Shown piece after piece: positions 10,376-57,186 of a stretch of DNA of 64,000 nucleotides. The notes under the pieces are model-generated. The model did no database searches. It saw only the letters and a list, made by a program, of their open reading frames with translations, and had not been told where the DNA came from. This DNA comes from Archivesica marissinica (Eukaryota; Mollusca; Bivalvia; Venerida; Vesicomyidae): assembly GCA_014843695.1 (NCBI GenBank), contig CM026386.1:16269489-16333488 (forward strand), in the 5' to 3' direction. Within the stretch, counting starts at the first letter, position 1. The number at the start of each line of letters is the position of its first letter. The translations under genes were made by a program, and so were the position numbers.

Positions 10376-10571
10376 TATGAATCAAATCTGCTGAATATAT
10401 TAGTATGTTATTTTCGTAGCTAAATAAATGTAGCACTCAAAGGTGGAAATAATTCATCAACATTGATTGCTGTAAAGCATAGTTTAATTGAACACATAGT
10501 AATATAAAGGGTTTGTTTGAGTTCACATGACGCAATATCATGAATATGTTGATTGTTCACTTGTTTTACTC

Positions 10572-13500
10572 AATGATGTGTAATGCTGCTCGGTGGGTGT
10601 ACAGAATGTTGTCGGAGGCTCATGTACTCGGGGATGTGTAATGCTGCTAGGTGGGTGTACAGAATGTTGTCGGAGGCTCATGTACTCGGGGATGTGTAAT
10701 GCTGCTCGGTGGGTGTACAGAATGTTGTCGGAGGCTCATGTACTCGGGGATGTGTAATGCTGCTAGGTGGGTGTACAGAGTGTTGTCGGAGGCTCATGTA
10801 CTCGGGGATGTGTAATGCTGCTAGGTGGGTGTACAGAGTGTTGTCGGAGGCTCATGTACTCGGGGATGTGTAATGCTGCTCGGTGGGTGTACAGAATGTT
10901 GTCGGAGGCTCATGTACTCGGGGATGTGTAATGCTGCTAGGTGGGTGTACAGAGTGTTGTCGGAGGCTCATGTACTCGGGGATGTGTAATGCTGCTAGGT
11001 GGGTGTACAGAGTGTTGTCGGAGGCTCATGTACTCGGGGATGTGTAATGCTGCTAGGTGGGTGTACAGAATGTTGTCGGAGGCTCATGTACTCGGGGGAT
11101 GTGTAATGCTGCTAGGTGGGTGTACAGAGTGTTGTCGGAGGCTCATGTACTCGGGGATGTGTAATGCTGCTAGGTGGGTGTACAGAGTGTTGTCGGAGGC
11201 TCATGTACTCGGGGATGTGTAATGCTGCTAGGTGGGTGTACAGAGTGTTTGTTGTGGGATGTGTAATGCTGCTAGGTGGGTGTACAGAGTGTTGTCGGAG
11301 GCTCATGTAAACGGGGGATGTGTAATGCTGTTAGGTGGGTGTACAGAATGTTGTCGGAGGCTCATGTACTCGTGGGATGTGTAATGCTGCTAGGTGGGTG
11401 TACAGAGTGTTGTCGGAGGCTCATGTAAACGGGGATGTGTAATGCTGCTAGGTGGGTGTACAGAGTGTTGTCGGAGGCTCATGTACTCGGGGGATGTGTA
11501 ATGCTGCTTGGTGGGTGTACCGGATGTTGTCGGAGGCTCATGTACTCGGGTATGTGTAATGCTGCTAGGTTGGTGTACAGAGTGTTGTTGGACGTTCATG
11601 TACTCGGAGGATGTGTAATACTGCTCTGTGGGTGTACAGACTGTTGTTGGATGCTCATGTACTCTGGGGGATGTGTAATGCTGCTCGGTGGGTGTACAGA
11701 ATGTTATTGAAGGCTCATGTACTCGGGGGATGTGTAATGCTGCTTTGTGGGTGGACAGAGTGTTGTCGGAGGCTCATGCACTTGGGGATGTGTAATGCTG
11801 CTCAGTGGGTGTACAGTGTTGTCAGAGGCTCATGTACTCGGGGATGTGTAATGCTGCTAGGTGGGTGTACAGAGTGTTGTCGGAGGCTCATGTACTGGGG
11901 ATGTGTAATGCTGCTAGGTGGGTGTACAGAATGTTGTCGGAGGCTCATGTACTCTGGGGGATGTGTAATGCTGCTAGGTGGGTGTACAGAGTGTTGTCGG
12001 AGGCTCATGTACTTGGGGATGTGTAATGCTGCTAGGTGGGTGTACAGAGTGTTGTCAGAGGCTCATGTACTTGGGGATGTGTAATGCTGCTAGGTGGGTG
12101 TACAGAGTGTTGTTGGAGCTCATGTACTCGGGGATGTGTAATGCTGCTAGGTGGGTGTACAGATGTTGTTGGATGCTCATGTACTCGGGGATGTGTAATG
12201 CTGCTCGTGGGTGTACAGAATGTTATTGGAGGCTCATGTACTCGGGGATGTGTAATGCTGCTCAGTGGGTGTACAGAGTGTTGTCAGAGGCTCATGTACT
12301 GGGGATGTGTAATGCTGCTCGGTGGGTGTACAGAGTGTTGTCAGAGGCTCATGTACTCGGGGATGTGTAATGCTGCTAGGTGGGTGTACAGAGTGTTGTC
12401 GGAGGCTCATGTACTCGGGGGATGTGTAATGCTGCTTGGTGGGTGGACAGAGTGTTGTCGGAGGCTCATGTACTCGGAGGATGTGTAATGCTGCTAGGTG
12501 GGTGGACAGAGTGTTGTCGAGGGCTCGTGTAAATGGGGGATGTGTAATGCTGCTCTGTGGGTGTACAGACTGTTGTTGGATGCTTATGTACTCTGGGGGA
12601 TGTGTAATGCTGCTAGGTGGGTGTACAGACTGTTGTTGGATGCTCATGTACTCTGGGGGATGTGTAATGCTGCTCGGTGGGTGTTCAGAATGTTATTGGA
12701 GGCTCATGTACTCGGGGGATGGTAATGCTGCTCAGTGGGTGTACAGAGGTTGTCAGAGGCTCATGTACTGGGATGGTTGGCTGTGGGTGAGAGTGTTGTC
12801 GAGGGCTGTGTATGGGGGATGTGTAATGCTGCTCTGTGGGTGTACAGAGTGTTGTCGGAGGCTCATGTACTCGGGGATGTGTAATGCTGCTTGGTGGGTG
12901 GACAGAGTGTTGTCGGAGGCTCATGTACTCGGGGATGTGTAATGCTGCTAGGTGGGTGGACAGAGTGTTGTCGAGGGCTCGTGTAAATGGGGGATGTGTA
13001 ATGCTGCTCGGTGGGTGTACAGACTGTTGTCGGAGGCTCATGTACTCGGGGATGTGTAATGCTGCTAGGTGGGTGTACAGACTGTTGTCGGAGGCTCATG
13101 TACTGGGGATGTGTAATGCTGCTCGGTGGGTGTACAGAGTGTTGTCGGAGGCTCATGTACTCGGGGGATGTGTAATGCTGCTTGGTGGGTGTACAGAGTG
13201 TTGTCGGAGGCTCATGTACTCGTGGGATGTGTAATGCTGCTAGGTGGGTGGACAGAGTGTTGTCGAGGGCTCGTGTACATGGGGGATGTGTAATGCTGCT
13301 CGGTGGGTGTACAGACTGTTGTCGGAGGCTCATGTACACGGGATGTGTAATGCTGCTAGGTGGGTGGACAGAGTGTTGTCGGAGGCTCATGTACACGGGG
13401 ATGTGTAATGCTGCTCAGTGGGTGTACAGAGTGTTGTCGGGGCTCATGTAAACGGGGATGTGTAATGCTGCTCGGTGGGTGTACAGAATGTTGTCGGAGG

Positions 13501-14010
13501 TGATGTACTCGGGGTGTGTTGTGTGGTGGTGGTGTTGTGGGTTGTGGGATGTGTAATGCTGCTAGGTGGGTGGACAGACTGTTGTCGGAGGTTCATGTAC
13601 ACGGGGGATGTGTAATGCTGCTAGGTGGGTGTACAGACTGTTGTCGGAGGCTCATGTACTCGTGGGATGTGTAATGCTGCTCTGTGGGTGTACAGACTGT
13701 TGTCGGAGGTTCATGTACTCGTGGGATGTGTAATGCTGCTCTGTGGGTGTACAGAGTGTTGTCGGAGGCTCATGTACTCGTGGGATGTGTAATGCTGCTA
13801 GGTGGGTGTACAGAGTGTTGTCGGGGGCTCATGTACTCGGGGGGATGTGTAATACTGCTTGGTGGGTGTACAGAATGTTGTCGGAGGCTCATGTACACGG
13901 GGGATGTGTAATACTGCTTGGTGGGTGTACAGAGTGTTGTCGGAGGCTCATGTACACGGGGGATGGGTATTGATGTTTTGTGTATTGTCGGAGATTCATG
14001 TATGCAGCGA
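10572..14010. repeat. 58-bp minisatellite, about 58 copies
   Basis: The unit has the pieces GATGTGTAATGCTGCT, GGTGGGTGTACAGA, GTTGTCGGAGGCTC and ATGTACTCGG. The first kilobase is nearly uniform. From 11.3 kb onward, units vary in the spacer (CTCGG, CTCGTGG, AACGG, CTCTGGGG) and in TCGGAGG versus TTGGATG. Units around 12720-12830 and 13500-13550 are damaged by deletions. Because 58 is not a multiple of 3, open frames drift and no real protein is implied. Confidence 0.96.
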
Positions 14011-16013: not shown

Positions 16014-18210
16014 CAGGTGCGTAGCTGGGCGTACGCACGTACGCATGTGCGTACGTAAATTTTGACAGGTCGGAAACATGAAAATGCGAAAAATGCAATA
16101 AAAAATGAAGCCTAAGGGGGGTGAGGGGTCAAATGTTTATTATCTTCAACAGTTATAACATATATCTACAATTATGTGACACGACTGTTCGATATCTAGA
16201 GCCGTCCAAAGCATGCTTACGAAGAGAGATAACCCGGACTTGACTTCACGTTTATGTTTGATAAGATCAGATATTGTCCCTTCTATTCGTCATTTTCTCT
16301 AAGAGTAGACTCCCTTAGTTTAGCGTTCATTCATCTATTGTAAAAAAGTGTAACAGTGCCCCATTCTTTGGCTTCATAGCAGACGAGGCCACCGACTCTT
16401 CCACAATTGAGCAGATGGCTCTATGTTTGCGATATTTCGACTACGATACACTAGCCGTACGTGAAGATGTCATTACGTTCGCCGAATGCGACGCCACGAC
16501 TGGTGAATCACTTTCCGATGCATTTCTGAAGAACTTGAGACTTGCAGGCGTAGACGTAGATAAAATGAGGGGCCAGGGATATGATGGCGCTTCGAACATG
16601 TCCGGGAAGTTCCGTGGGGTACAAGCACGAATTAGACAGTCGCTGCCCAAAGCAGTGTACACTCATTGCAAAGCGCATTGCTTAAATTTAGCTATAGTAC
16701 ATGCGTCGGAAGAGCCGTTGGCCAGGAATATGATGAACACAGTTCAAGAAATTGCGTTTTCCTTTAATTATTCCGCGAAGCGACTATTGCAATACAAGGA
16801 AACGCTAGCGAATGATGCCGGAAGTAAAATTGCCATGGAGCATAGAACAAAATTACAATCCCTGTGCGAAACAAGATGGGCAGCAAGAGCGGACACGCTG
16901 AACACCTTCCAGTCTTCATACATAACGGTCGTGGAGGCACTGGATGACCTCTGTCTACACTATGGCGATAGCAAGGCCGGTGCATACAGAATAGCCATCA
17001 TGCAGTTCGGGTTCATCGTGTGTCTTGTAGCTATAGAACATGTGCTCTCGGGATTAATGCCACTGTCCAAAATGTTACAAAACAAGTCATGTGACCTTAT
17101 TGAAGCTGTCAAAGAAGCTAACGTCATCACTCGCCAAGTTACGGATGAGCGAAATGATCCAGCTGTGTGGGATGTCCTGTACGCGAAGGCTGTTGAAATG
17201 GCAGAGGCTGTTGATGTGCAACCATCACGACCTAGAGCCCCGAATAATCGGCGTCAGTAACATCGTCAAAATGCTCCGGCAGATACCGTTTCTGACTACT
17301 GGAAGGGAAACATGTACTTACCTTTCGTCGATCATTTGGTAACAGAACTATCTGATCGTCTTATTGAGGATGGCGACAGATTCAATGCCCAATTCCTGAT
17401 ACCAGGCGATATAGGTAATCTTACCGAGGATATAATTGCGTCCATATATAAAACATTTGAGGAGGATCTCCCCGCGGTTGATTTTGAAGACTTCAAACGG
17501 GAAGTGTCTCGCTGGAAAGTTAGGTGCGCTGGTGACACTGAAGTTCACGCCACCATAGGTGACACGCTGGCACACACGCCTAGGGAGCTGTACCCCAACG
17601 TTTCAACATGTCTGCATATTTTGCTGGCGATGCCTGTTTCAACTGCCACCGCAGAAAGATCGTTCAGCAGCATGCGCCGCTTGAAAATGTACCTTCGGTC
17701 AACCATGACAACAGGCAGATTGTCGTGCCTAGGACTGATGAACATTCACAGGGACAAAGAGATAAACACTGACATGGTTATCGATGTCTTCGCTAGATGG
17801 AAGGAGCGGCGCCTTGCCTTTGTGTTTCGTGTCTAAGTAATAGTTTAGAGCGCTGTACGTCAGTCTGTACGAAGAGATAATTCCCGAGATTTAGCGAGAG
17901 GATTATCGATCGTACAGGCTGAAAACAGTGCTCTAACTATTTTGTGTCACCCCCATGCCCGTACCATGTCTCTACTTGTAATAACACATCTTGGTTAAAG
18001 TCACTTGGTGTTCGTTTTCATTGTAAAAAAATCTCGTAAAACCCATTAATTTAAACTATTTGCAGCAGTATTTTGTGTACATATAAGTTGTGAAATAAAC
18101 TCTAAAACTCACCTACGGCTGTATAGCAAAAACAAAATTCCGGGGGAGCATGCCCCCGCACCCCCCTAGCGCCGGTGCGTATCCACATTTTAGTCCCAGC
18201 TATGCGCCGG
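16014..18210 (+). mobile_element. hAT transposon, 5'-deleted
   Basis: The ends CAGGTGCGTAGCTGGG and (reverse complement) CCGGCGCATAGCTGGG are imperfect inverted repeats of hAT type. CAAGA occurs just outside both ends and may be part of the target duplication. The right subterminal region carries GGGGGAGCATGCCCCCG and ACCCCCCTAG, a feature I associate with many animal hAT elements. The interior contains a transposase reading frame missing its N-terminus and interrupted by one stop. TIR boundaries are approximate. Confidence 0.78.
16319..17836 (+). pseudogene. hAT transposase of the P52rIPK/ZMYM-like type (DUF4371 + hAT C-terminal), one nonsense codon
   Basis: One frame is open from 16319 to 17836 except for a TAA at 17258-17260. 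It starts abruptly in the catalytic domain (FFGFIADEATDSSTIEQM), then has GYDGASNMSGKFRGVQ, the hAT insertion motif CKAHCLNLA, and TRWAARADTL. After the stop come NAPADTV, PFVDHLVTEL and the dimerisation region YPNVSTCLHILLAMPVS followed by TATAERSFSSMRRLK. The likely acidic residues are the Asp of IADEATD, the Asp of GYDGA and the Glu of AERSFS. The stop falls in a conserved RRQ-HR stretch, so a single nonsense change is the simplest explanation. The BED/TTF zinc finger and most of the N-terminal half are absent. It is therefore non-functional, although quite well preserved downstream. Confidence 0.88.
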
Positions 18211-21108: not shown

Positions 21109-21300
21109 TAAACACAGTTTAGTATTTAAATAAAATACCGTAGAACGACAATGTGATAACATAATCCACTTACTTTTAAACCGCTGGTTTTATATTTCTG
21201 ACCAAGACGTTTGCTACCCTTCGCTATATTCTGTCTATGTTGTCTGGTACAATATCTCAGTCATGTGGAGTTTTTATCAGTCGTCGTCACGCCATAACAC

Positions 21301-21336
21301 ATATGTGACCCACCATGGCATAATCAGTCACATGTC
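21301..21336 (+). repeat. Left terminal inverted repeat of the 6.16-kb element
   Basis: Starts ATATGTGACCCACCATGGCA and ends GTCACATGTC. Its reverse complement occurs at 27424-27459 with three mismatches. Weaker similarity (TTTTGAGT) continues inward. Confidence 0.8.
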
Positions 21337-22204
21337 ACTAAAAACAAGTTTTGAGTTAGTTACATATTCTGAATCTGTATAGTTTCAGCTTTACTGTGCT
21401 CCAATTCTTTTTGAAATACCTTGATTTTTGGCCGAGTTAGAGCAAAAAGTGTCTTGCCAAACATGGATACATTGTTTTGAGAAAATGGCCGTCAAAGATC
21501 GGATAATGTATTTTGAATACAGTAATCAGATCTCCCTAGCAACAACACCCTTAACTTCAAGATACAGATCTCATATTTTGCACACATTCAGCTTAGATGA
21601 TATACTAATAAAACAAATATGGTTGGTATGTTTAGGGTGGTTGAATTTCATGAAATTAATCAAATTAATTTGATGAAATTTAAATAACAAGACAGAAATT
21701 CGTGAAAAAACGTTAAAAAAAGTTTTTTTTATTAAAGATAATATTATTACTATAGATACATATGTACATTTGTATAACAGAAAATATTGATTTAAATAAT
21801 ATTAAAAGTCAAATTAACCCCTATGGTAGGGTCGGGCGACTAGAACCATACATATATACTTTATTTGGCCAGGTCTTCGGGGCTCATTCTAGGTCAGAGA
21901 TATTTTGGGTGAAGTGAGAAAGCGTGCGTGCTTGCGTCCTAAAATGATGTTCTAAATTTCTGCAAAATACAGTTAAAATGCACAGTATGACCATTAAATA
22001 CAACATTTGAATAGGAGGATTGCTTTATAATGAGCCAGTGTATCTTACTAGACAAAATCTTGTAAATGAAATGTAAAAATAAGAAAAAACATTTTTTAGG
22101 GAGAAGTAGGGCCCCTAGGGGCAAAGTCAGGGTCCCTAGGGCGACTATTTCACCAAAGTGGCCCTCTAGAATGAGTCCTGGTATTGCTGCCAAAGTGAAA
22201 AACA

Positions 22205-22210
22205 TTTATT
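22205..22210 (-). terminator. Candidate poly(A) signal of the DUF7869-like gene
   Basis: AATAAA on the minus strand, about 145 bp past the TGA of the gene and well inside the left inverted repeat. A plausible cleavage signal by position only. Confidence 0.4.
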
Positions 22211-22352
22211 AAAAAATTACCCAATGATGGAACAAAGTCTGATAGAAAATATAATTTTTTATAACACTGAAATGTTTGACATGAGTGTAACACCACTACA
22301 TGTAATTTGATGATGTAAGCCTGGAAAGAGTCTGATTTAAAAAATAATTTGT

Positions 22353-25300
22353 TCAATTCCGCTTCTGTCTCTTTGGTTGTGGCTGTACCTCTGATGCCCG
22401 CGGTTTGGGACAGGAGATATCCTTCGACTCGTCATCACAAAAGTCACGTATGTGATCGAAAAGATATGTCTGCCGTTTTATATCAAGTCCTGGCGGTGGC
22501 ACTACAGGAGGCAAATCAGCTGGAGGGAGACAGGCAGGATTCTTTAACAACTGGAATACAGTTGTGTCTGCCGAGTCAGCGTATTCCTTGGCAATCACTT
22601 GCCCTGGTGTTGAGGAATCAAAGCTGAAAAAATAAGGTCAAACATTAGTTGAGGCTCAACACTGGCGGCGGAGTAATGGAATATTCTTGACTGTTGAAAT
22701 GAAAATGATTTATAAGACTATGTCTGGTGGTTTATTCCTTGTATTCTAAGAGCGTCTGTAATTGCTAATAGAAAGCAATGTAGCGGTTTAATAAATAATC
22801 ATTATATTTTCATTACATCCAGGCTTATAGGGAAATACTACACAAGATCAAGGTTGGGGTTCACTCCAGCCTACTCCAGTATATTCTTATCCGATCATTA
22901 AAATATCATCGCTTCAGGTGCGAAAGGTCCGGAGTTCGAGCCCTGCTGGAGCCGTTACGATTGTGCCCTTAGGCAAGGTATTTAAATTCCACGTTGCCTC
23001 TTCTCTCTCCCTCATGTCGAGAGTGATTAATTAAAGTTGAAAGAACCTGTTTCGCAATCAAGCTAAAATAAATTTGTATAAACTAAAAATATCATCACTT
23101 GTTAGCACGGTCCAATGAGAATGATTCATATAAGTTGTTAAATCTTGTTTCGCTATCCTTGTAAACTATATAAAGTTTAAATTGTATCCGATCACTAAAA
23201 ATAGCATGTGAAACGCACCTGAAATGTTGGAAGCTCTTGATTCCAGGTAATGGTCGAAAGTATGGTTCCAGGAATGTCTGCCAATTGTAGGAGTTCACAT
23301 AGCTTGTCCCATCCTCGAGTCCAACCAACTGGGCTATATTGACTCCTGTCACCGTGCTCATGCGAACAACATCTGCAATATCCTCAAGTTTGCACACACG
23401 GGTCCTTCTAAAATACTGTTTAACCAGACCAAAGCACCAGTCTGGTGCAAACTGTGTGTGTCCAGCTATGAGAAAGTTCAGTGTTATATCCAGGTGCAGT
23501 TTGTGCATCACTCTCCAAGCCATGTACCAGAGAACAAAACGATTTTTGTTCTGACCCGAACAATTATCACAGTGAAGATCCACAGAAGTTTCACCAACAC
23601 CATAATTATCAAAGAAATTGTGCAGGTAGCTGATCACACTACTTGATCCTTTACTGGATGACATGCCTTCATCTATCAGATAGTTAACTTGCTGTGGCAT
23701 CCCTTCACAACAAATTCCAAACAGGCCACACTTCCGCGGAGTTAGGAAGTACATTGGTCCAGGTTGAAGAGGGTCGCATGGAAAATGAACCTGAAAAATA
23801 AGAACAAAATAATATATAAAAGTGAATGAATAAAACATTAAGTGAATATAATTCACTTTTTATTAAGTCTATACAAATTTATGTTAGCTCGATTGCGAAA
23901 CAAGTTTTTACAACATTAGTTTAATTGCTTTCGAGACTTCATTCATGATGGAAGCCTTCGCCACGAGGGAGAGTATACAGATAATATACTATTATGTGTC
24001 TTGCCTAAGGAAATCACCACCTTGTTTCCAGCAGGGATTAAACTCGCAACCTTTGATTACGAGGTGAACATACATGTACCATAATAATCACTACCATGCC
24101 TCCACTGTTTCACTTAGTTGTTTACATTATTAATCTGGTTTCACTACAGGCACAGTACATGTATACAGGCACAGTACATGTATACAGGCACAGTACATGT
24201 ATACAGGCACAGTACATGTATGTATACAGGCACAGTACATGTATACAGGCACAGTACATGTATACAGGCACAGTACATGTATACAGGCACAGTACATGTA
24301 TACAGGCACAGTACATGTATATTGATTGCACAATGCATACTGACAAGTATTCCAGGTCGCAAAACAATAGAAAATGGAAATAAAATTTCATCTGTGAAAA
24401 TTAAGCTTGTGGAGATTGAATGATGAACAATATTTTTTTAATCAGGGACTGGTCAAGTATTAAATGAGCAGTTAGGGATAGTGTGGTCTAGTCTAATCCA
24501 TACGCCTGTACATGTTTGTGTACATTGATGTGTAAAATTGCTGTATGAGGTGTAAAAATGAAATACACACCTGCTGAGCAAAGTGGAAACTGTCGTGCAT
24601 TCTCGATGGGCGACTAGCAGGTGCTGATAGCTGTAGTTTCAAATTGAAATCCTGGCAAACGGATTTGCAATTGTTCACCATCTCTTGATACAACGACCGT
24701 TCCTTGGAGACGAGGGAAAGATGTTCTTCCTGCTTTCGTAGCTTTGCAGATTTAACCACCTCTGGCAGATTTGCACTCCTGAACACTTGGTAATTGTTTT
24801 TCTGGCAGACCCAGCACAAATCAGACATGGGCTTGGTCCTTACTACATGTGGCATCAGTGTTTTCCATAGGTGTCTGAATGCGCTTAGCTGCACAGCCCG
24901 ATATTCTGAAAAAAGAAGGCGATATTTTGAATTGATGTGCAAGTGATGAAAAACTATAATGTAGCAACTCCAACAATTCTTCTGAAAGTATTAATATTAC
25001 AATTGTGCAGACATGGGTATCTTCCACTGATTTGTACATCAACATTTTTAATAGATCTAATACATGTGCATAGATTAATAAAAACCTAGCAGCACCTGCA
25101 ATGTGCTGCAAGAATTTTAAAAATAGAATTCTTTATTCTGGCGTCATTGTAACCTCGTGCGTTGCCTGTCGTCCTGCGGTAGAGCGGCGGATTTGGAATT
25201 GTATGGTCTTGGGTTCGATACTCGGTCAGGCCATGTATGTATTGAGCAAGGCAAACAGACTTACCAAGTGATTCCATAGATGTCTTGTATAAACGCCACA

Positions 25301-26817
25301 CCATGGACTTCGTGACATTTGATGGGAGAAGTTTGATGTCGTATCTCTTTTGCCCTGGGTGACGTCCTGGCAAAATTACGGCATGTTCTTCGGCATAATT
25401 TGTGATGAACGTGACAACCCGTAGAATATCATCATGCTTTAAATAATGTCGATTCCGCTCCTGGCGGCCACCACTCATTTTCTTACGAGGCACCAAACCA
25501 TGTTCTTTGTACCACTGAAACAAGGCTGTGAGTTTATCCTGGCTGATGCTGGAAAGATAAATAATGAAATTCAATAATAATTTAAGTCGAGAAATAAAAC
25601 ACTGGCGTGTATGTATGTATGTATGTTCCATTAATGTTAAGCCCTTGTGGTGACCTAGACATGCTTTCCTTGGACAGGCTTAGTCGACATAAGCGGTGTG
25701 CAAGATGCCTTGCTCAATGACACCACGTAAGTGCCCTGACCGAGTACCGAACCTGGGGACCTTCAATTTCAAATCTGACACTCTACCACTGGACGCCACA
25801 TGATTAGATACAGAAACCCGACAAGGTAGCAATGGGGGTATTCCTGTGTATACCCATCTACTTTTGTTGTGGTCTTATGATTCGGCTAACCTGGTACATG
25901 TATGTATTGCGATGAATCCTCACCGTTGCATGTATTTTGCTGAACAACACTGACAGTGCAATACTAAATGTATGTGCAGGTTTGGTTAACTCTCTTTTTT
26001 AATAATATGTATACGGTAGCACTTTAAATTTTATGTAGACATGAGATGATAAGGAAACAATAAAATATACTTACTCATGTATGAATCGGAAGGCGCTACG
26101 ACATACGTTCACTCCTTCTATCATGTATTGAGTTTTCTGGTGAGACCGTTCTTTCTGCACACGTTGTTTCTTTCGTTGTGTCATTACACTTCTGTTGGTC
26201 ATGCAGCTTATTTTGCCAAGTAATACGAGATCCTTCTCGTAACTTGTGAGTTCACTCATCTCGAGACGACATCGATAAATGAACTCGGTATCAATATTGG
26301 CAGAGCACGACTTCATTAAATCATCCATTTTCTTCCGCCTTTTCAAACAATCACACTTGAAATTATTTATTTTTAAAATTTCCTGGTCCGTATCATCCAT
26401 GATGCCACAGACATTTTTCATAGCATCGTCTATTTCCTCTGTAACCATAACATCTAACACAGGACCATCATCACGTGGACAACAATTGTCTATAATATAA
26501 GCTTGTTGTATGTCCTCTAGGCCTACTCCAGCCTGCAGCAGCTTAGCACAAGCATCATCATGTACATCTTGTACAACTGGGGTAGGACCACTGGCGGCAC
26601 ACTCTAGTGGAGAAGTTGTGATATCAATATCGGGTATAACTGTCTCAGTCTCAGAATCGGAATCAGAATCAGAAGACCTGACATCATCATCATCTTCATC
26701 ATTCAAGAAATAATCTTTGATCAAGCCAGTCCACTCACTAACCGAGTTTGCTGCCGTCAAATTTAACATATCCAGCTCATTGAGTGCCTTTGCAACAAGG
26801 ATATCCTTTCTATTCAT
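22353..26817 (-). CDS. Five-exon DUF7869-like, RNase-H-fold transposase-like protein, 734 aa
   Basis: The exons on the minus strand are 26817-26075, 25548-25265, 24905-24571, 23790-23219 and 22623-22353. All four introns have GT-AG ends, the phases (2, 1, 0, 2) match, and the total of 2205 nt is exactly 735 codons including TGA. In order the protein has an acidic N-terminus (about 30-130), a basic and Cys-containing region (CDCLKRRKKMDDLM, about 170-245), a conserved helical block (VTFITNYAEEHAVILPGR), a CxxC element (MSDLCWVCQ), then a core with LQPGPMYFLTPRKCGLFG, VDLHCDNCSGQNKNR (Asp529) and GHTQFAPDWCFGL (Asp571), and a C-terminus with LPPVVPPPGL. I recall this layout from many unnamed invertebrate proteins, which I believe are grouped as DUF7869. 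The DNC-GQNKN and GHT motifs suggest an RNase-H-like nuclease fold. Residue 450 is His in SFHFAQQ where I recall Asp in relatives, so activity is uncertain. A transposase role is inference from the flanking inverted repeats. Confidence 0.82.
22911..23085 (+). repeat. SINE family C, 5'-truncated, with target duplication
   Basis: Body and tail of family C (GGTGCGAAAGGTCCGGAGTT, then CAATCAAGCTAAAATAAATT). It is flanked by perfect 11-bp duplications AAAATATCATC at 22900-22910 and 23086-23096. It sits in the last intron of the DUF7869-like gene, antisense to it, and lacks the start of the tRNA head. Confidence 0.88.
23869..24075 (-). repeat. SINE family C, old copy
   Basis: The tail TATACAAATTTATGTTAGCTC, ATTGCGAAACAAG and CGCCACGAGGGAGAG are recognisable, but the body is diverged and carries an insertion. 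It lies in intron 3 of the DUF7869-like gene, sense orientation. Confidence 0.75.
24147..24325. repeat. 19-bp minisatellite in intron 3
   Basis: About 9.5 nearly perfect copies of CAGGCACAGTACATGTATA. One unit carries a 4-bp insertion. Each unit contains the palindrome TACATGTA. The open frames on both strands are repeat artefacts. Confidence 0.94.
25150..25254 (+). repeat. SINE family E in intron 2, abutting a splice donor
   Basis: The head GTCCTGCGGTAGAGCGGCGG and box B GGGTTCGATACTCGG mark a tRNA-derived SINE. Its 3' truncated end lies only about 10 bp from the donor of exon 2 at 25264-25263 (minus strand), yet the donor GTAAGT is intact. Confidence 0.72.
25640..25802 (-). repeat. SINE family E in intron 1
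   Basis: The reverse complement reads TGGCGTCCAGTGGTAGAGTG, then GGTTCGGTACTCGGTCAGG (box B) and a CACTTACGTGGTGTCATTGAG body. This is the best-preserved E copy in the window. Confidence 0.78.
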
Positions 26818-27423
26818 TTTGTAGATATTAATTCACTGTGTAGTTGTACAATTATATTATTTAATCTGCTTTAAATCATGAACAAATGCGAGCAAGATTA
26901 CATAAACAACGTTAGAACATAGGCGCAGCCATCTTGAATTACCCAGAATCCTTAGCGTGAAACGCTACTATGACACATGTGACCTGCAGCGGGCCAATCA
27001 GCGACTGAATATTAATTAGTTAAGCTGATGTATAGCAACACACGTGGTTTGTTGATGGTTAGTTCTCGATTCCTATTGGCCAACGATGAAGTCATACTAA
27101 TGTAGCAGTCAAATGACGTCATAGGGGATTCCTTTCCGCGTATTTTGATACCAAATAGTAGGGTAATCCCTAGAGCTTTCATGTACTTTCCGATTGTTGA
27201 AAATGTAGGAAAAACAGCCCAATAATGCCCTTTGTTTCAATCCTGTGGATCAGTATGCTTCACTAATCAACAAAATTAGGAAAGTGTGTGTGCCATTGAT
27301 TCGAATTAGAATGATCCTAGGTGTTAATTAGGTCATTAATAGATCGTTTTCCTTCGAAACTCAATTTTTACCAGATAGTGCATTTTTCACTTGATAGCTT
27401 GTTTACTCAAAAAGTGCATGTGC

Positions 27424-27459
27424 GACATGCGACTGATTATGCCGTGGTGAGTCACATAT
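27424..27459 (-). repeat. Right terminal inverted repeat of the 6.16-kb element
   Basis: The reverse complement starts ATATGTGACTCACCACGGCA and differs from the left repeat at three positions. Confidence 0.8.
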
Positions 27460-28522
27460 ATACATTTAACACGGGCTTTACATGGAACTGAAATCAGCTA
27501 ATTATTTGGTGGCTAACTGTACGGCCCTGGCATGTGGTTTTGTAGCAATCATTTGCACACAAATTGGGTCAACTAATTTTACCCTGGCTGTTATGAGCCG
27601 TGAAACGTTTTAACAGATTTCCCTGTTATATACCGTCCATACTCGCCTATAAGACGGGGATATTTCCCGCTGATTTAAGGCTCAAAGTCAGGGTCCCGTC
27701 TAAAAAGCGGGTCACAAAACATGACCTAAAAGTTTTCAGTCATTATCAGTTGGTTTGGCATTTTCTAAATGTCAGCCAGCTATATTATATTTGGCCAATT
27801 TGATCCATTTTTATACTTTTTTCACCGACTTTTTGACGGGTATTAAATGTAATAATAACTGACATTAAATATATACATATTTGTTAATTCATATATTCAT
27901 GCAATATTAATATTATTTTCATTAAATGAACAAAACACTAAAGTGTAAATTAATTCGAAATATGTGGAAAAGTTAGCAATGACACCAGTTGGTCACAGTT
28001 TTCAAAAAGTCAGTCATACAGAAGTGTTTATCTGGGTTTATTGTTTGGCAACATTAAACTGAGACAAATTAATCTCCGTCAACGCCTTCATAACTTTTCG
28101 TGCAAATCACAATAATTACCGAACCGTTTATAATCGCCGGGTGCACCAAATACAAAATTTGTATATGTGTATATAATTTGTTTTGACCAATTTGATCCCT
28201 TTTTATACATTTTTTCACCGACTTTGGGTATTAAATGAACACATTGGTAAATTAAAAACTGCGAAAGATTCTAGCCCTGGACAATTCTTATTTCAATAAT
28301 TAATATATACCCCCGTTTAAACAAATTATATGCAAAGTATATCTGGGACTCCTTTAAACGCCCCCCTTTTTTCATACCTCTTGAAACAGTCCCTATTATC
28401 CACTAGTATAGCGTATCCATAGCAACGAACCAACACGTGTGTAGAGAGCAGTTTAACCTTACATCGATTTCCATATTTGGACATGGGCTGAAGCAGGGAA
28501 AAACTTCAAAGTCATTCACCAA

Positions 28523-31058: not shown

Positions 31059-34000
31059 TACGACACAACAAGTACAAGGCACGTAGCGTATGTACAGAGC
31101 ACATACCGTATGACACGACAAGTACAATGCACGTAGAGTGTGTACAGAACACATATCGTATGACACAACAAGTACAAGGCACGTATCGTATGTACAGAGC
31201 ACATATCGTACGACACAACAAGTACAAGGCACGTCACGTAGGTACAGAGCACATACCGTACGACACAACAAGTACAAGGCACGTAGCGTATGTACAGAGC
31301 ACATATCGTACGACACAACAAGTACAAGGCACGTCGCGTAGGTACAGGGCACATACCGTAAGACACAACAAGTACAAGGCACGTCGCGTATGTACAGGGC
31401 ACATATCGTACGACACAAGAAGTACAAGGCACGTAGCGTGTGTACATAACACATATCGTACGACACAACAAGTACAAGGCACGTAGCGTAGGTACAGAGC
31501 ACATACCGTACGACACAACAAGTACAAGGCACGTCACGTATGTACAGGGCACATATCGTACGACACAAGAAGTACAAGGCACGTAGCGTGTGTACAGAGC
31601 ACATATCATACGACACAACAAGTACAAGGCATGTCGCGTAGGTACAGGGCACATATCGTACGACACAACAAGTACAAGGCACGTAGCGTATGTACAGGGC
31701 ACATATCGTACGACACAACAAGTACAAGGCACGTAGCGTGGTACAGAGCACATATCGTACGACACAACAAGTACAAGGCACGTCGCGTATGTACAGGGCA
31801 CATATCGTACGACACAACAAGTACAAGGCACGTAGCGTATGTACAGGGCACATATCGTACGACACAACAAGTACAAGGCACGTAGCGTGTGTACAGGGCA
31901 CATATCGTACGACACAACAAGTACAAGGCACGTAGCGTAGGTACAGAGCACATATCGTACGACACAACAAGTACAAGGCACGTCGCGTATGTACAGAGCA
32001 CATATCGTACGACACAACAAGTACAAGGCACGTAGCGTAGGTACAGGGCACATATCGTACGACACAACAAGTACAAGGCACGTAGCGTAGGTACAGGGCA
32101 CATATCGTACGACACAACAAGTACAAGGCACGTAGCTTATGTACAGGGCACATATCGTACGACACAACAAGTACAAGGCATGTAGCGTAGGTACAGGGCA
32201 CATATCGTACAAAACAACAAGTTCAAGGCACGTAGCGTATGTACAGGGCACATATCGTACGACACAACAAGTACAAGGCACGTCGCGTGTGTATAGGGCA
32301 CATATCGTACGACACAACAAGTACAAGGCACGTAGCGTAGGTACAGAGCACATATCGTACGACACAACAAGTACAAGGCACGTCGCGTGTGTACAGAGCA
32401 CATATCGTACGACACAACAAGTACAAGGCACGTCGCGTAGGTACAGAGCACATATCGTACGACACAACAAGTACAAGGCACGTAGCGTATGTACAGAGCA
32501 CATATCGTACGACACAACAAGTACAAGGCACGTAGCGTGTGTACAGAACACATATCGTACGACACAACAAGTACAAGGCACGTAGCGTGTGTACAGAGCA
32601 CATATCGTACGACACAACAAGTACAAGGCACGTAGCGTATGTACAGAGCACATATCGTACGACACAACAAGTACAAGGCACGTAGCGTGTGTACAGACAC
32701 ATATTGACACAACAAGTACAAGGCACGTACGTATGTACAGAGCACATATCGTACGACACAACAAGTACAAGGCACGTCGCGTAGGTACAGAGCACATACC
32801 GTACGACACAACAAGTACAAGGCACGTAGCGTATGTACAGAGCACATATCGTACGACACAACAAGTACAAGGCACGTCGCGTAGGTACAGGGCACATACC
32901 GTACGACACAACAAGTACAAGGCACGTCGCGTAGTACAGGGCACATCGTACGACACAACAAGTACAAGGCACGTAGTGTGTACAGACACATCGTACGACA
33001 CAACAAGTACAAGGCACGTAGCGTAGGTACAGAGCACATACCGTACGACACAACAAGTACAAGGCACGTCACGTATGTACAGGGCACATATCGTACGACA
33101 CAACAAGTACAAGGCACGTAGCGTGTGTACAGAGCACATATCGTACGACACAACAAGTACAAGGCACGTCGCGTAGGTACAGGGCACATATCGTACGACA
33201 CAACAAGTACAAGGCACGTAGCGTATGTACAGGGCACATATCGTACGACACAACAAGTACAAGGCACGTAGCGTGTGTACAGGGCACATATCGTACGACA
33301 CAACAAGTACAAGGCACGTAGCGTAGGTACAGAGCACATATCGTACGACACAACAAGTACAAGGCACGTAGCGTATGTACAGGGCACATATCGTACGACA
33401 CAACAAGTACAAGGCACGTAGCGTAGGTACAGGGCACATATCGTACGACACAACAAGTACAAGGCACGTAGCGTAGGTACAGGGCACATATCGTACGACA
33501 CAACAAGTACAAGGCACGTAGCGTATGTACAGGGCACATATCGTACGACACAACAAGTACAAGGCACGTAGCGTATGTACAGGGCACATATCGTACGACA
33601 CAACAAGTACAAGGCACGTCGCGTATGTACAGGGCACATACCGTACGACACAACAAGTACAAGGCACGTCGCGTAGGTACAGGGCACATATCGTACGACA
33701 CAACAAGTACAAGGCACGTAGCGTATGTACAGGGCACATATCGTACGACACAACAAGTACAAGGCACGTAGCGTATGTACAGAGCACATATCGTACGACA
33801 CAACAAGTACAAGGCACGTAGCGTATGTACAGAGCACATATCGTACGACACAACAAGTACAAGGCACGTCGCGTATGTACAGGGCACATATCGTACGACA
33901 CAACAAGTACAAGGCACGTAGCGTGTGTACAGAGCACATATCGTACGACACAACAAGTACAAGGCACGTAGCGTATGTACAGAGCACATATCGTACGACA

Positions 34001-37000
34001 CAACAAGTACAAGGCACGTCGCGTAGGTACAGGGCACATATCGTACGACACAACAAGTACAAGGCACGTAGCGTAGGTACAGAGCACATATCGTACGACA
34101 CAACAAGTACAAGGCACGTAGCGTGTGTACAGAGCACATATCGTACGACACAACAAGTACAAGGCACGTAGCGTGTGTACAGAGCACATATCGTACGACA
34201 CAACAAGTACAAGGCACGTAGCGTAGGTACAGGGCACATACCGTACGACACAACAAGTACAAGGCACGTAGCGTATGTACAGGGCACATATCGTACGACA
34301 CAACAAGTACAAGGCACGTCGCGTGTGTACAGGGCACATATCGTACGACACAACAAGTACAAGGCACGTAGCGTAGGTACAGAGCACATATCGTACGACA
34401 CAACAAGTACAAGGCACGTAGCGTGTGTACAGAACACATATCGTACGACACAACAAGTACAAGGCACGTAGCGTATGTACAGAGCACATACCGTACGACA
34501 CAACAAGTACAAGGCACGTAGCGTGTGTACAGAACACATATCGTACGACACAACAAGTACAAGGCACGTCACGTAGGTACAGGGCACATACCGTACGACA
34601 CAACAAGTACAAGGCACGTAGCGTATGTACAGAGCACATACCGTACGACACAACAAGTACAAGGCACGTAGCGTGTGTACAGAACACATATCGTACGACA
34701 CAACAAGTACAAGGCACGTCACGTAGGTACAGGGCACATACCGTACGACACAACAAGTACAAGGCACGTAGCGTATGTACAGAGCACATATCGTACGACA
34801 CAACAAGTACAAGGCACGTCGCGTAGGTACAGGGCACATACCGTACGACACAACAAGTACAAGGCACGTCGCGTATGTACAGGGCACATATCGTACGACA
34901 CAACAAGTACAAGGCACGTAGCGTGTGTACAGAACACATATCGTACGACACAACAAGTACAAGGCACGTCACGTATGTACAGGGCACATACCGTACGACA
35001 CAACAAGTACAAGGCACGTAGCGTGTGTACAGGGCACATATCGTACGACACAACAAGTACAAGGCACGTAGCGTAGGTACAGAGCACATACCGTACGACA
35101 CAACAAGTACAAGGCACGTAGCGTAGGTACAGAGCACATAACGTACGACACAACAAGTACAAGGCACGTCGTGTAGGTACAGGGCACATATCGTACGACA
35201 CAACAAGTACAAGGCACGTAGCGTATGTACAGGGCACATATCGTACGACACAACAAGTACAAGGCACGTCGCGTGTGTACAGGGCACATATCGTACGACA
35301 CAACAAGTACAAGGCACGTAGCGTATGTACAGAGCACATACCGTACGACACAACAAGTACAAGGCACGTCACGTATGTACAGGGCACATATCGTACGACA
35401 CAACAAGTACAAGGCACGTAGCGTGTGTACAGAGCACATATCGTACGACACAACAAGTACAAGGCACGTAGCGTAGGTACAGAGCACATATCGTACGACA
35501 CAACAAGTACAAGGCACGTAGCGTATGTACAGGGCACATATCGTACGACACAACAAGTACAAGGCACGTCGCGTGTGTACAGGGCACATATCGTACGACA
35601 CAACAAGTACAAGGCACGTAGCGTAGGTACAGAGCACATATCGTACGACACAACAAGTACAAGGCACGTAGCGTATGTACAGAGCACATATCGTACGACA
35701 CAACAAGTACAAGGCACGTAGCGTATGTACAGGGCACATACCGTACGACACAACAAGTACAAGGCACGTAGCGTATGTACAGGGCACATATCGTACGACA
35801 CAACAAGTACAAGGCACGTAGCGTAGGTACAGGGCACATATCGTACGACACAACAAGTACAAGGCACGTAGCGTATGTACAGAGCACATACCGTACGACA
35901 CAACAAGTACAAGGCACGTAGCGTGTGTACAGAGCACATATCGTACGACACAACAAGTACAAGGCACGTCACGTAGGTACAGGGCACATACCGTACGACA
36001 CAACAAGTACAAGGCACGTAGCGTATGTACAGAGCACATATCGTACGACACAACAAGTACAAGGCACGTCGCGTAGGTACAGGGCACATACCGTACGACA
36101 CAACAAGTACAAGGCACGTCGCGTATGTACAGGGCACATATCGTACGACACAACAAGTACAAGGCACGTAGCGTGTGTACAGAGCACATATCGTACGACA
36201 CAACAAGTACAAGGCACGTCGCGTATGTACAGGGCACATATCGTACGACACAACAAGTACAAGGCACGTAGCGTGTGTACAGAGCACATATCGTACGACA
36301 CAACAAGTACAAGGCACGTCGCGTAGGTACAGGGCACATATCGTACGACACAACAAGTACAAGGCACGTAGCGTATGTACAGGGCACATATCGTACGACA
36401 CAACAAGTACAAGGCACGTAGCGTATGTACAGGGCACATATCGTACGACACAACAAGTACAAGGCACGTAGCGTGTGTACAGAACACATATCGTACGACA
36501 CAACAAGTACAAGGCACGTCACGTATGTACAGGGCACATACCGTACGACACAACAAGTACAAGGCACATAGCGTGTGTACAGGGCACATATCGTACGACA
36601 CAACAAGTACAAGGAACGTAGCGTAGGTACAGAGCACATACCGTACGACACAACAAGTACAAGGCACGTAGCGTAGGTACAGAGCACATATCGTACGACA
36701 CAACAAGTACAAGGCACGTCGTGTAGGTACAGGGCACATATCGTACGACACAACAAGTACAAGGCACGTAGCGTATGTACAGGGCACATATCGTACGACA
36801 CAACAAGTACAAGGCACGTCGCGTGTGTACAGGGCACATATCGTACGACACAACATGTACAAGGCACGTAGCGTATGTACAGAGCACATACCGTACGACA
36901 CAACAAGTACAAGGCACGTCACGTATGTACAGGGCACATATCGTACGACACAACAAGTACAAGGCACGTAGCGTGTGTACAGAGCACATATCATACGACA

Positions 37001-40000
37001 CAACAAGTACAAGGCATGTCGCGTAGGTACAGGGCACATATCGTACGACACAACAAGTACAAGGCACGTAGCGTAGGTACAGAGCACATAACGTACGACA
37101 CAACAAGTACAAGGCACGTAGCGTGTGTACAGAGCACATATCGTACGACACAAGAAGTACAAGGCACGTAGCGTGTGTACAGAGCACATATCGTACGACA
37201 CAACAAGTACAAGGAACGTAGCGTACGTACAGAGCACATACCGTACGACACAACAAGTACAAGGCACGTAGCGTATGTACAGGGCACATATCGTACGACA
37301 CAACAAGTACAAGGCACGTCGCGTGTGTACAGGGCACATATCGTACGACACAACAAGTACAAGGCACGTAGCGTAGGTACAGAGCACATATCGTACGACA
37401 CAACAAGTACAAGGCACGTAGCGTGTGTACAGAACACATATCGTACGACACAACAAGTACAAGGCACGTAGCGTATGTACAGAGCACATACCGTACGACA
37501 CAACAAGTACAAGGCACGTAGCGTGTGTACAGAACACATATCGTACGACACAACAAGTACAAGGCACGTCACGTAGGTACAGGGCACATACCGTACGACA
37601 CAACAAGTACAAGGCACGTAGCGTATGTACAGAGCACATACCGTACGACACAACAAGTACAAGGCACGTAGCGTGTGTACAGAACACATATCGTACGACA
37701 CAACAAGTACAAGGCACGTCACGTAGGTACAGGGCACATACCGTACGACACAACAAGTACAAGGCACGTAGCGTATGTACAGAGCACATATCGTACGACA
37801 CAACAAGTACAAGGCACGTCGCGTAGGTACAGGGCACATACCGTACGACACAACAAGTACAAGGCACGTAGCGTATGTACAGGGCACATATCGTACGACA
37901 CAACAAGTACAAGGCACGTAGCGTGTGTACAGAACACATATCGTACGACACAACAAGTACAAGGCACGTCACGTATGTACAGGGCACATATCGTACGACA
38001 CAAGAAGTACAAGGCACGTAGCGTGTGTACAGAGCACATATCATACGACACAACAAGTACAAGGCATGTCGCGTAGGTACAGGGCACATATCGTACGACA
38101 CAACAAGTACAAGGCACGTAGCGTATGTACAGGGCACATATCGTACGACACAACAAGTACAAGGCACGTCGCGTGTGTACAGGGCACAAATCGTACGACA
38201 CAACAAGTACAAGGCACGTAGCGTAGGTACAGAGCACATATCGTACGACACAACAAGTACAAGGCACGTCACGTGTGTACAGAGCACATATCGTACGACA
38301 CAACAAGTACAAGGCACGTAGAGTAGGTACAGGGCACATATCGTACGACACAACAAGTACAAGGCACGTAGCGTAGGTACAGGGCACATATCGTACAATA
38401 CAACAAGTACAAGGCACGTAGCTTATGTACAGGGCACATATCGTACGACACAACAAGTACAAGGCATGTAGCGTAGGTACAGGGCACATATCGTACAAAA
38501 CAACAAGTTCAAGGCACGTAGCGTATGTACAGGGCACATATCGTACGACACAACAAGTACAAGGCACGTCGCGTGTGTATAGGGCACATATCGTACGACA
38601 CAACAAGTACAAGGCACGTAGCGTAGGTACAGAGCACATATCGTACGACACAACAAGTACAAGGCACGTCGCGTGTGTACAGAGCACATATCGTACGACA
38701 CAACAAGTACAAGGCACGTAGCGTGTGTACAGAACACATATCGTACGACACAACAAGTACAAGGCACGTAGCGTATGTACAGAGCACATATCGTACGACA
38801 CAACAAGTACAAGGCACGTAGCGTGTGTACAGAGCACATATCGTACGACACAACAAGTACAAGGCACGTCACGTAGGTACAGGGCACATACCGTACGACA
38901 CAACAAGTACAAGGCACGTAGCGTATGTACAGAGCACATATCGTACGACACAACAAGTACAAGGCACGTCGCGTAGGTACAGGGCACATACCGTAAGACA
39001 CAACAAGTACAAGGCACGTCGCGTATGTACAGGGCACATATCGTACGACACAAGAAGTACAAGGCACGTATCGTGTGTACATAACACATATCGTACGACA
39101 CAACAAGTACAAGGCACGTAGCGTAGGTACAGAGCACATACCGTACGACACAACAAGTACAAGGCATGTCACGTATGTACAGGGCACATATCGTACGACA
39201 CAAGAAGTACAAGGCACGTAGCGTGTGTACAAAGCACATATCATACGACACAACAAGTACAAGGCATGTCGCGTAGGTACAGGGCACATATCGTACGACA
39301 CAACAAGTACAAGGCACGTAACGTATGTACAGGGCACATATCGTACGACACAACATGTACAAGGCACGTAGCGTAGGTACAGAGCACATATCGTACGACA
39401 CAACAAGTACAAGGCACGTCACCTGTGTACAGAGCACATATCGTACGACACAACAAGTACAAGGCACGTAGCGTAGGTACAGGGCACATATCGTACGACA
39501 CAACAAGTACAAGGCACGTAGCGTAGGTACAGGGCACATATCGTACAATACAACATGTACAATGCACGTAGCGTAGGTACAGAGCACATACCGTACGATA
39601 CAACAAGTACAAGGCACGTCACGTATGTACAGGGCACATATCGTACGACACAACAAGTACAAGGCACGTCGCGTGTGTACAGGGCACATATCGTACGACA
39701 CAACAAGTACAAGGCACGTAGCGTAGGTACAGAGCACATATCGTACAATACAACAGGTACAAGGCACGTAGCGTATGTACAGGGCACATATCGTACGACA
39801 CAACAAGTACAAGGCACGTCGCGTATGTACAGGGCACATACCGTAAGACACAACAAGTACAAGGCACGTCACATAGGTACAGAGCACATATCGTACGACA
39901 CAACAAGTACAAGGCACGTAGCGTATTTACAGAGCACATATCATACCACACAACAAGTACAAGGCACGTAGCATAGGTACAGAGCACATACCGTACGACA

Positions 40001-40680
40001 CAACAAGTACAAGGCACGTAGCGTAGGTACAGAGCACATACCGTACGACACAACAAGTACAAGGCACGTCACGTATGTACAGGGCACATACCGTACGACA
40101 CAACAAGTACAAGGCACGTCGCGTAGGTACAGAGCACATATCGTACGACACAACAAGTACAAGGCACGTAGCGTATGTACAGCACATATCGTACGACACA
40201 ACAAGTACAAGGCACGTAGCGTGTGTACAGCACATATCGTACGACACAACAAGTACAAGGCACGTAGCGTATGTACAGAGCACATATCGTACGACACAAC
40301 AAGTACAAGGCACGTCGCGTAGGTACAGGGCACATATCGTACGACACAACAAGTACAAGGCACGTCACGTAGGTACAGGGCACATACCGTACGACACAAC
40401 AAGTACAAGGCACGTAGCGTATGTACAGAGCACATATCGTACAACACAACAAGTACAAGGCACATCGCGTTGGTACAGGGCACATACCGTACGACACAAC
40501 AAGTACAAGGCACGTCACGTAGGTACAGAGCACATATCGTACGACACAACAAGTACAAGGCACGTAGCGTAGGTACAGGGCACATATCGTACGACACAAC
40601 AAGTACAAAGGCATGTCGCGTAGGTACAGGGCACATACCGTCAATACCACAAGAATAAAGTCACGTCGCATAAGTACAGA
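31059..40680. repeat. 50-bp satellite array, about 190 resolved copies
   Basis: The unit joins TACGACACAACAAGTACAAG, GCACGTAGCGTATGTACAGA and GCACATATCG. Variation concentrates at a few positions (GTAGC/GTCGC/GTCAC, TAT/TAG/TGT before GTACAG, AGAGC/AGGGC/AGAAC, ATATC/ATACC). Larger copies of these patterns recur: 34201-34980 matches 37201-37980 (offset 3000, 60 units), 34921-35200 matches 36471-36750 (offset 1550), and a rare variant with GTACAAAACAACAAGTTC at 32207 recurs at 38493. Shortened units occur at about 32690-32735, 32930-32995 and 40180-40235. No unit has a stop in any minus-strand frame, giving very long spurious frames. Confidence 0.97.
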
Positions 40681-40682
40681 AC

Positions 40683-41023
40683 AAAGTGGTCGAGTGGTTA
40701 CGGTCGCTAACTTGTATACCACTGTAGCCAATCATCACCGAGGCCGTGTCGCATTTATATGAAACGGTTAACAGTTTCTTACGGATTTTGGTGCACCAAG
40801 TACTGGTTAACCGCTTGAGCCCTAATAAAATTACGAGTCATTCGGATGTGACTTTAAACCGAGGTTAGTGTCTGTGCTTTCCACCATGCACGTAAAAGAA
40901 CCAGAAGAGCTTCTGGAATGGGTCTCTGTCTGTATCACTGCACTATCCATTAATCTAAATAAACTAATCTCTTCAGGAGGCGTCGCTCATATGGGCAACC
41001 GGTAGCGACGATAAATAAAACAC
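40683..41023 (+). repeat. Chimeric SINE: family A head joined to family B body and tail
   Basis: It begins with the A head and body (GTGGTCGAGTGGTTACGGTC, CACCAAGTACTGGTTAACCG) and at about 40820 switches to B sequence (CTAATAAAATTACGAG, GTAAAAGAACCAGAAGAG) ending in the shared tail GGCAACCGGTAGCGACGATA. It sits directly at the right edge of the 50-bp satellite. Confidence 0.82.
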
Positions 41024-53483: not shown

Positions 53484-53708
53484 GCCTCCGTGGTCGAGTG
53501 GTTACGGTCGCTGACTTGCATACCACTGTAACCTTATCATCACTGATGGCCACGGCTTCGAGCCCCTCTCAGACCGTGTCTCTTTAGATAAAAAAGTAGG
53601 CAGTTTCCCTACGGAGGTTCGTGCACCAAGTACTGGTTAACCGTGGGAGCCTGCCCAGGTAAACTGCCCGTCGAACATATGGGCTACCGGTAGCGACGAT
53701 AAATAAAT
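53484..53708 (+). repeat. SINE family A, full length
   Basis: Same organisation as the copy before it, with the tail CTACCGGTAGCGACGATAAA. The 30-bp array begins about 20 bp downstream. Confidence 0.92.
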
Positions 53709-53727
53709 GTAATACAAAGCCATTGAG

Positions 53728-56700: not shown

Positions 56701-56762
56701 ATGTGCTGCATGACATGTTACGAGGAAACAATGTTCTACATGACATGTTACGGAGAAACAAC
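53728..56762. repeat. 30-bp minisatellite, about 100 copies
   Basis: The unit joins ACGGAGAAACAATGTGCTGC and ATGACATGTT. The left part mixes ACGGATAAAC, ACGGGGAAAC and TGCCATG variants; the centre is nearly uniform. Two one-base deletions (near 54347 and 54804) shift the register. The unit has no stop in several frames on both strands, so frames of 600 to 820 codons appear, in both directions and in competing registers. This fits homogenised non-coding DNA rather than genes. Confidence 0.97.
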
Positions 56763-56765
56763 AGT

Positions 56766-57186
56766 GAGAGCACAGGTCCGTGATTGACATCGATTGAAAT
56801 CAATAGGATAGAAATAGTACATAATGTAGACTATGTCACCATGCAAATTGCAATAATCGCATTATGTGTAATATATGTCTTCCATTATGTATAGGATATA
56901 AGCAGAAAACGATCCAATATGTAACATAATGGACTGTGTGGCACCGAACACAGTGACAATAGATTCCATATTGGATCTGTTTGAGGTTTATATCATATTT
57001 AAAACACACAATTATATAACACGATCTTACTAATTAAAATCGTTAATTTCGTACATTTACGCATAGGATTTCATATAATGCACTGGACTTTTGACGGCAG
57101 TCCAATATTAATAATAATGGACTGCAGTACATAGGTATGACGTCACGATAGTGTTTAAGTCAAATAAACAGTACATAACGTAGACT
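56766..57186. other. Non-coding stretch
   Basis: A segment around 56820-56900 (GTAGACTATGTCACC, AATCGCATTATGTGTAATAT) recurs in diverged form around 57410-57470 after an inserted SINE B. No gene seen. Confidence 0.5.

Follow-up and report, generated by a model that had tools for sequence, protein, structure and literature searches.

A mobile inverted-repeat element carrying a DUF7869 gene in the bivalve Archivesica marissinica, very probably a DNA transposon of the Sola superfamily

Background

The Sola superfamily of DNA transposons reportedly goes back to Bao et al. 2009 and Repbase. In this study, we describe a 6.15-kb element lying within a 64,000-nucleotide stretch of Archivesica marissinica DNA (hereafter the window; contig CM026386.1 of assembly GCA_014843695.1), which is bounded by terminal inverted repeats (TIRs), is found at other places of the genome with the same ends, and carries a single predicted gene for a protein with the Pfam domain DUF7869. 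By its described features we file it as very probably a Sola element, most likely of the Sola2 branch.

Sola elements are described as having a DDD transposase, 4-bp target duplications and TIRs of 11-1124 bp, as being mostly 2-9 kb long, and as occurring in bacteria and metazoans (PMC10741241). Sola2 duplications are given as AT-rich 4-bp sequences of the form AWWT, with ATAT, AAAT and ATTT as examples (PMC3627910), and a mollusc survey counts 105 Sola2 elements (PMC10294476). Kolobok and KolobokP, other DDD/E transposons that are rich in bivalves, are described as leaving solo terminal repeats with 3-4 or 4-5-bp duplications, and KolobokP as having long terminal direct repeats and a His-Me nuclease (PMC9587614).

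Results

Boundaries of the element

A first-pass annotation, made from the letters of the window, had reported 36-bp inverted repeats around a gene and proposed a mobile element. The pair is real: the arms at 21301-21336 and 27424-27459, 36 nt each, are 92% complementary, and the arm sequence with at most 3 mismatches occurs twice in the whole window and never in shuffles. The outermost ATAT of each arm, however, is palindromic and constitutes the 4-bp target duplication, therefore the TIR proper is 32 bp long (29/32 identical, sequence GTGACYCACCAYGGCATAATCAGTCRCATGTC) and the element spans 21305-27455. The duplication TAACAC, offered as a first guess, was rejected, since the flanks and the empty sites point to ATAT. 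The boundaries are as follows (window positions):

21305..27455, minus strand: whole element, 6,151 bp, with the gene on the minus strand
21301..21304, no strand: left target-site duplication ATAT, from flank and empty-site comparison
27456..27459, no strand: right target-site duplication ATAT, from flank and empty-site comparison
21305..21336, plus strand: 32-bp TIR, 3' end of the gene-oriented element, GTGACCCACCATGGC...
27424..27455, minus strand: 32-bp TIR, 5' end of the gene-oriented element, GTGACTCACCACGGC...

Copies elsewhere in the genome

The 1.54-Gb assembly (2,808 contigs) contains 12 occurrences of the full 32-bp end at up to 3 mismatches, and a reversed control gave 0. Besides the window, full ends are paired at two places on C3, spanning 6.13 and 5.99 kb, and at one place on C13, spanning 10.1 kb (there the alignment skips about 4.2 kb of extra sequence), so that the proposed search for copies with the same ends was successful; four further full ends stand singly. 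When the protein was compared with the genome, at least 66 exon matches were obtained and merged into at least 56 gene loci with identities between 50% and 99%, both counts being lower bounds as 61 of 446 candidates were scored. A 25-base TIR core at up to 2 mismatches matched 473 times, with 0 for the reversed pattern. Using 58 exact core hits, a correctly oriented core was found near 19 of the 56 loci, at most 13 kb upstream or 6 kb downstream (an observed count, without a shuffled control), and near 22 of 56 after addition of four one-mismatch cores picked by eye, three of them for their nearness to genes. A second subfamily, with 56% protein identity and 32-bp ends GTGACCCGCCATACCAAAATCAGTCTTAAGTC, was identified on C16, C7 and C19.

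Core pairs 1.5-3.9 kb apart were also found, none of them among the listed protein matches, and one further core pair spans 12 kb on C2. The first-pass annotation had named repeats without the gene at unrelated spacing as evidence against its reading, and such repeats literally exist; but four of the five short pairs examined carry exact 4-bp duplications, and because of this we take the short pairs, from ends and duplications alone, as non-autonomous relatives.

Target duplications and empty sites

An exact 4-bp duplication was found in 8 of 9 independent two-ended host insertions. The window copy and its two C3 sisters, all ATAT/ATAT, were counted once because they have 500 bp of flank on each side in common; the C13 insertion reads ATTT/ATTT; the second subfamily has ATAT on C16 and ATTT on C7, with a single end recovered on C19; and the five short pairs have ATTT, AACT, ATTT and ATAT, all exact, and one inexact ATAT/AATT. 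The exact host duplications are thus ATAT (three), ATTT (four) and AACT (one), and together with AAAT, AATT and ATTT from the bacterial elements below, 10 of 11 fit AWWT.

For two insertions, those of C13 and the window, the joined flanks match uninterrupted host repeats, that is, empty sites. The C13 joined flanks gave 68 matches, 38 of which cross the insertion point, and 10 of 10 aligned ones run through it without a gap, the four bases there being AATT (8), TATT (1) and ATTT (1). The window joined flanks have at least 40 matching places, compared by length and identity; all those listed cross the junction, 12 of them span exactly 300 of 300 bases, and the best eight have 98% identity. Both empty sites and a duplication of constant length, as had been proposed for checking, were thereby found, the length being 4 bp. 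A 2-bp AT duplication, suggested by three bacterial elements (L001, L003 and L007) that share only AT, did not hold for the host, where the empty repeats are matched at full length by joined flanks that retain a single 4-bp copy. With the same ends in other copies, the empty sites and the 4-bp duplications, the TIR-bounded element is real and mobile.

The gene and the DUF7869 protein

The predicted gene has five exons joined by GT-AG introns and encodes 734 amino acids plus a stop, which reproduces the 735 codons of the first-pass annotation. There are 5148 alternative open splice combinations, and among those listed at 734 aa or more, 23 give exactly 734 aa; the model was selected for its agreement with homologues aligned end to end, across the junctions. 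Predicted features, all on the minus strand, are:

26075..26817, minus strand: exon 1, with the ATG at 26817 (predicted gene model)
25265..25548, minus strand: exon 2 (predicted gene model)
24571..24905, minus strand: exon 3, in which the catalytic-strand motif near its end reads MHDSFHFAQ (predicted gene model)
23219..23790, minus strand: exon 4, with DNCSGQNKN, GHTQFAPDWCFG and most of DUF7869 (predicted gene model, Pfam)
22353..22623, minus strand: exon 5, including the stop codon (predicted gene model)
24583..24585, minus strand: codon of residue 450, His here versus Asp, the first D of DDD, in relatives (exon map)
23566..23568, minus strand: codon of Asp529, second D of DDD (exon map)
23440..23442, minus strand: codon of Asp571, third D of DDD (exon map)

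Membership in DUF7869, previously a guess, is borne out by Pfam PF25273 at 62.1 bits (gathering cut-off 26). The homologue search returned 384 proteins at E <= 0.001, of which the best 120 are the relatives counted here. The closest among the matches listed is from Salvelinus alpinus (64% identity over 100% of residues 230-690), followed in that list by priapulid, limpet, other fish, nemertean, annelid, echinoderm, coral and sponge proteins. No solved structure was found at E <= 1 by a PDB sequence search with the protein.

The RNase-H-fold nuclease supposed in the first-pass annotation is supported by the predicted structure of a Patella homologue, which has an RNase H-like transposase/integrase fold resembling integrase and Mos1, with a conserved D-D-D. 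In window numbering the triad lies at positions 450, 529 and 571, with 41 residues between the last two, and conserved Cys motifs lie ahead of the catalytic domain. Among the 120 relatives, position 450 is Asp in 118, position 447 is Tyr in 116 and position 567 is Lys in all 120, where the window protein has His, Asp and Gln, respectively. D450 is kept in 22 of 22 bacterial-type rows of the alignment, which comprise 8 loci and 14 proteins found with the L003 protein (one of these proteins being the same as L001). Of the 33 other rows, 32 have it.

Some observations on the introns and on a further protein are recorded here. Two inverted pairs lie within introns of the element, 25167-25240 / 25725-25798 (74 nt, 74%) and 23029-23087 / 23863-23921 (59 nt, 85%), and by eye both resemble oppositely oriented host short repeats, perhaps tRNA-derived short interspersed nuclear elements (SINEs). 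Intron 3 holds a 19-bp minisatellite at 24145-24320 (plus strand), where the element alignment breaks in copies C3:23.31M, C6 and C13. A remote member of DUF7869 is P0280 (874 aa, 67.7 bits), whose N-terminal part differs and whose length is near the 888 aa reported for an amoebozoan Sola2 transposase.

The altered active site of the window copy

The first-pass annotation called the copy intact, which holds for the open reading frame and fails at the active site, where the first catalytic Asp is His; judged from this change, its transposase is probably catalytically dead. The two C3 copies that share the window flanks have the same MHDSFHFAQ, and those of C11, C6 and C13 have MHYSFDFAQ. Q567 is also present in the C11 and C6 copies, and Lys in that of C13, so that Q567 is not restricted to the window lineage. 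As H450 was found in the window and the flank-sharing C3 copies and not in those of C11, C6 and C13, the change arose in one insertion that multiplied together with host sequence. The flanks themselves (21155-21304 and 27460-27609) belong to a host repeat that recurs, with 91-98% identity, in at least 40 other places, and at C3:23292771 this repeat lies without insertion between two filled copies. We propose that the window copy inserted into the host repeat, then had its first catalytic Asp replaced (D450H, accompanied by Y447D), and reached its present three places with the same flanks by amplification of host sequence and not by its own transposase.

Across 15 pairs of six family copies, the ratio of nonsynonymous to synonymous divergence (dN/dS) was 0.67 to 2.28 where defined, scattering around 1; in one pair, 6 nonsynonymous changes stand against 0 synonymous ones, and dS is at most 0.014. 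By these measures the family copies look young and unconstrained.

Bacterial relatives

In a scan of one genome per species, 30 pattern stretches led to 12 loci in bacterial records. They are mostly from metagenome-assembled genomes (MAGs); L003 is from an isolate, Desulfocicer vacuolatum DSM 3385, and L009 and L012, from one sponge-symbiont MAG, may be host DNA. In six of the 12 the gene is flanked by inverted arms of 39-45 nt, which bound elements of 2.1-2.3 kb (boundaries set by eye), with arms of 43 nt at 100% in L003 and 40 nt at 98% in a Legionellales MAG; their ends are mostly GGGG..., and in L011, one of the six, the longest frame is only 310 aa. Two bacterial proteins match Pfam DUF7869 at 57.5 and 66.7 bits (cut-off 26).

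Searching with the L003 protein returned 551 matches at E <= 0.001, and among the best 120 of these, 70 have a longest contig of 2,000-2,600 bases, near the element length, as may be expected of repeated elements that break assemblies. Among 395 genomes of the L003 phylum only the L003 genome itself matched, therefore the element is rare in that phylum. The same protein had no match in the plasmids and phages searched. For relatives in IMG/VR, a pattern search gave 0 and an alignment search 70 pattern stretches, none confirmed. In a tree of 56 rows, midpoint-rooted for drawing only, one branch separates the bacterial-type rows from all others (SH-aLRT 99). The window protein and five fish proteins form a group (98) to which the limpet and periwinkle proteins do not belong, and two other fish proteins are placed elsewhere. 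As a separate observation, the Desulfocicer element adjoins a truncated frame (L003:9244-9774), which by eye resembles an IS3-type transposase, and its two flanks do not pair, therefore rearrangement is likely.

Other features of the window

Two pieces of a degraded hAT-type transposase (DUF4371 and Dimer_Tnp_hAT), separated by a stop, lie at 16319-17257 and 17261-17833 (plus strand). There is a large tandem array at about 10559-13962 with 58-base spacing, and others, seen as long repetitive open frames, at 31487-40731, 43289-45334 and 53587-56830. A tRNA-like match at 46753-46824 (minus strand; 30.9 bits, gathering 29) is possibly a SINE head.

Discussion

Every published Sola and Sola2 feature that was tested fits the element. 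As in Sola, there is a DDD transposase with an RNase H fold (the fold coming from the homologue model), a 4-bp duplication (exact in 8 of 9 host and 3 of 6 bacterial insertions), TIRs and lengths within the published ranges (32 bp and 6.15 kb here, about 40 bp and 2.1-2.3 kb in bacteria), and a presence in both bacterial records (12 loci) and animals of many phyla. As in Sola2, the target preference is AWWT; one AACT and some inexact duplications are unlike Sola2, and nothing else tested differs. A new family at superfamily level, as the first-pass annotation had envisaged, is thus probably not what we see. Dictyostelid or algal Sola2 proteins were not recognisable by name among the 50 matches of a third protein search.

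Other known systems fit less well. Retroviral integrase and Tc1/mariner (Mos1) are similar in the RNase H fold and in the placing of conserved acidic residues, which close strand 1, follow strand 4 and open a later helix, but here the third residue is D at a spacing of 41 and the duplication is an AT-rich 4 bp, not TA; the 2-bp TA duplication of Tc1/mariner does not agree with joined flanks that match empty repeats gap-free with one 4-bp copy. Kolobok and KolobokP share a DDD/E transposase and short duplications near 4 bp. No long terminal direct repeat was seen in the window element, for which reason they were rejected; Pfam found no His-Me nuclease in the gene product, and no search for such a nuclease was made beyond that.

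From the ends, the 4-bp duplication, the empty sites, the copies at many places, the fold of the homologue and the conserved triad, all documented above, we infer a cut-and-paste chemistry with binding at the ends. The single gene encodes a DUF7869 protein, the DDD transposase, which would bind the 32-bp inverted ends, cut the element out and insert it at a 4-bp target that is rich in AT and mostly of the form AWWT; gap repair would then duplicate the 4 target bp.

Several points weigh against this account and the Sola assignment. Among the host insertions, that on C2 (ATAT/AATT) is the 1 of 9 that has no exact duplication, and one exact host duplication, AACT, is not AWWT. The empty repeats of C13 support the length of the duplication and not its exact target letters. 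Bacterial duplications are exact in 3 of 6 cases (AAAT, AATT, ATTT) and inexact in L001, L003 and L007. The structural model was made for the Patella homologue and not for the window protein, and Foldseek with it gave no match at E <= 0.001, the best being a TnsABCD transpososome chain (2.4e-3) and the Mu transpososome (1.0e-2). Movement is read from sequence traces, excision and transposition not having been observed, and Sola kinship is judged from published descriptions, not from alignment to a reference transposase.

It is also conceivable, though rather unlikely, that DUF7869 represents a separate, yet unnamed superfamily of bacteria and animals, sister of Sola2, with triad and duplication length convergent; its prokaryotic counterpart would be an unnamed bacterial insertion-sequence family of about 2.1 kb, with ends mostly GGGG... 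and an AWWT target. This would agree with our literature search, in which no paper was found naming DUF7869 or any of six DNC-GQNKN/GQNRN motif variants and the link from DUF7869 to Sola was absent, and with a 2023 paper listing links between bacterial insertion sequences and eukaryotic superfamilies, the accessible main text of which lacks the word Sola. NCBIfam, moreover, gave nothing above cut-off for the two bacterial proteins and thus names neither. On the other hand, every testable published Sola feature is present, down to the AWWT of Sola2. To our knowledge, DDD with 4-bp duplications is an uncommon combination, which we count against a separate superfamily. Sola has, in addition, already been reported from bacteria (PMC10741241).

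With a Sola element still preferred, two explanations that deny a transposon at this locus fare much worse. That the gene was domesticated from a transposase, H450 and the open frame being kept for a host role, is very improbable: the three copies with H450 do have no stop within their exons, but dN/dS scatters around 1 at dS <= 0.014, as in young drifting copies and not conserved ones, TIRs and target duplication are still present, and many other copies and subfamilies exist. Domestication was rejected on the dN/dS near 1, and the window copy bears no sign of it. That an ordinary gene merely happens to be flanked by a chance or unrelated pair of inverted repeats is less credible still; the genome has TIR-core hits without a listed gene match, but the pair had no counterpart in the window shuffles or the reversed-pattern genome control, an independent full copy on C13 has the same ends, and the empty sites refute it.

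If the separate superfamily were true, it would be a further link between bacterial and eukaryotic transposons. The window copy may illustrate how a dead transposon multiplies by riding on a host repeat. The elements found in bacteria have one gene each and share the triad and the target preference, and their small size suits them to direct biochemistry on the workings of this transposon group. Pfam gives no function for PF25273; here the domain would be the catalytic core of a transposase. A function would thereby be assigned to a domain termed unknown, and the uncharacterised DUF7869 proteins of fish, molluscs, annelids, echinoderms, corals and sponges would be, at least in origin, transposases.
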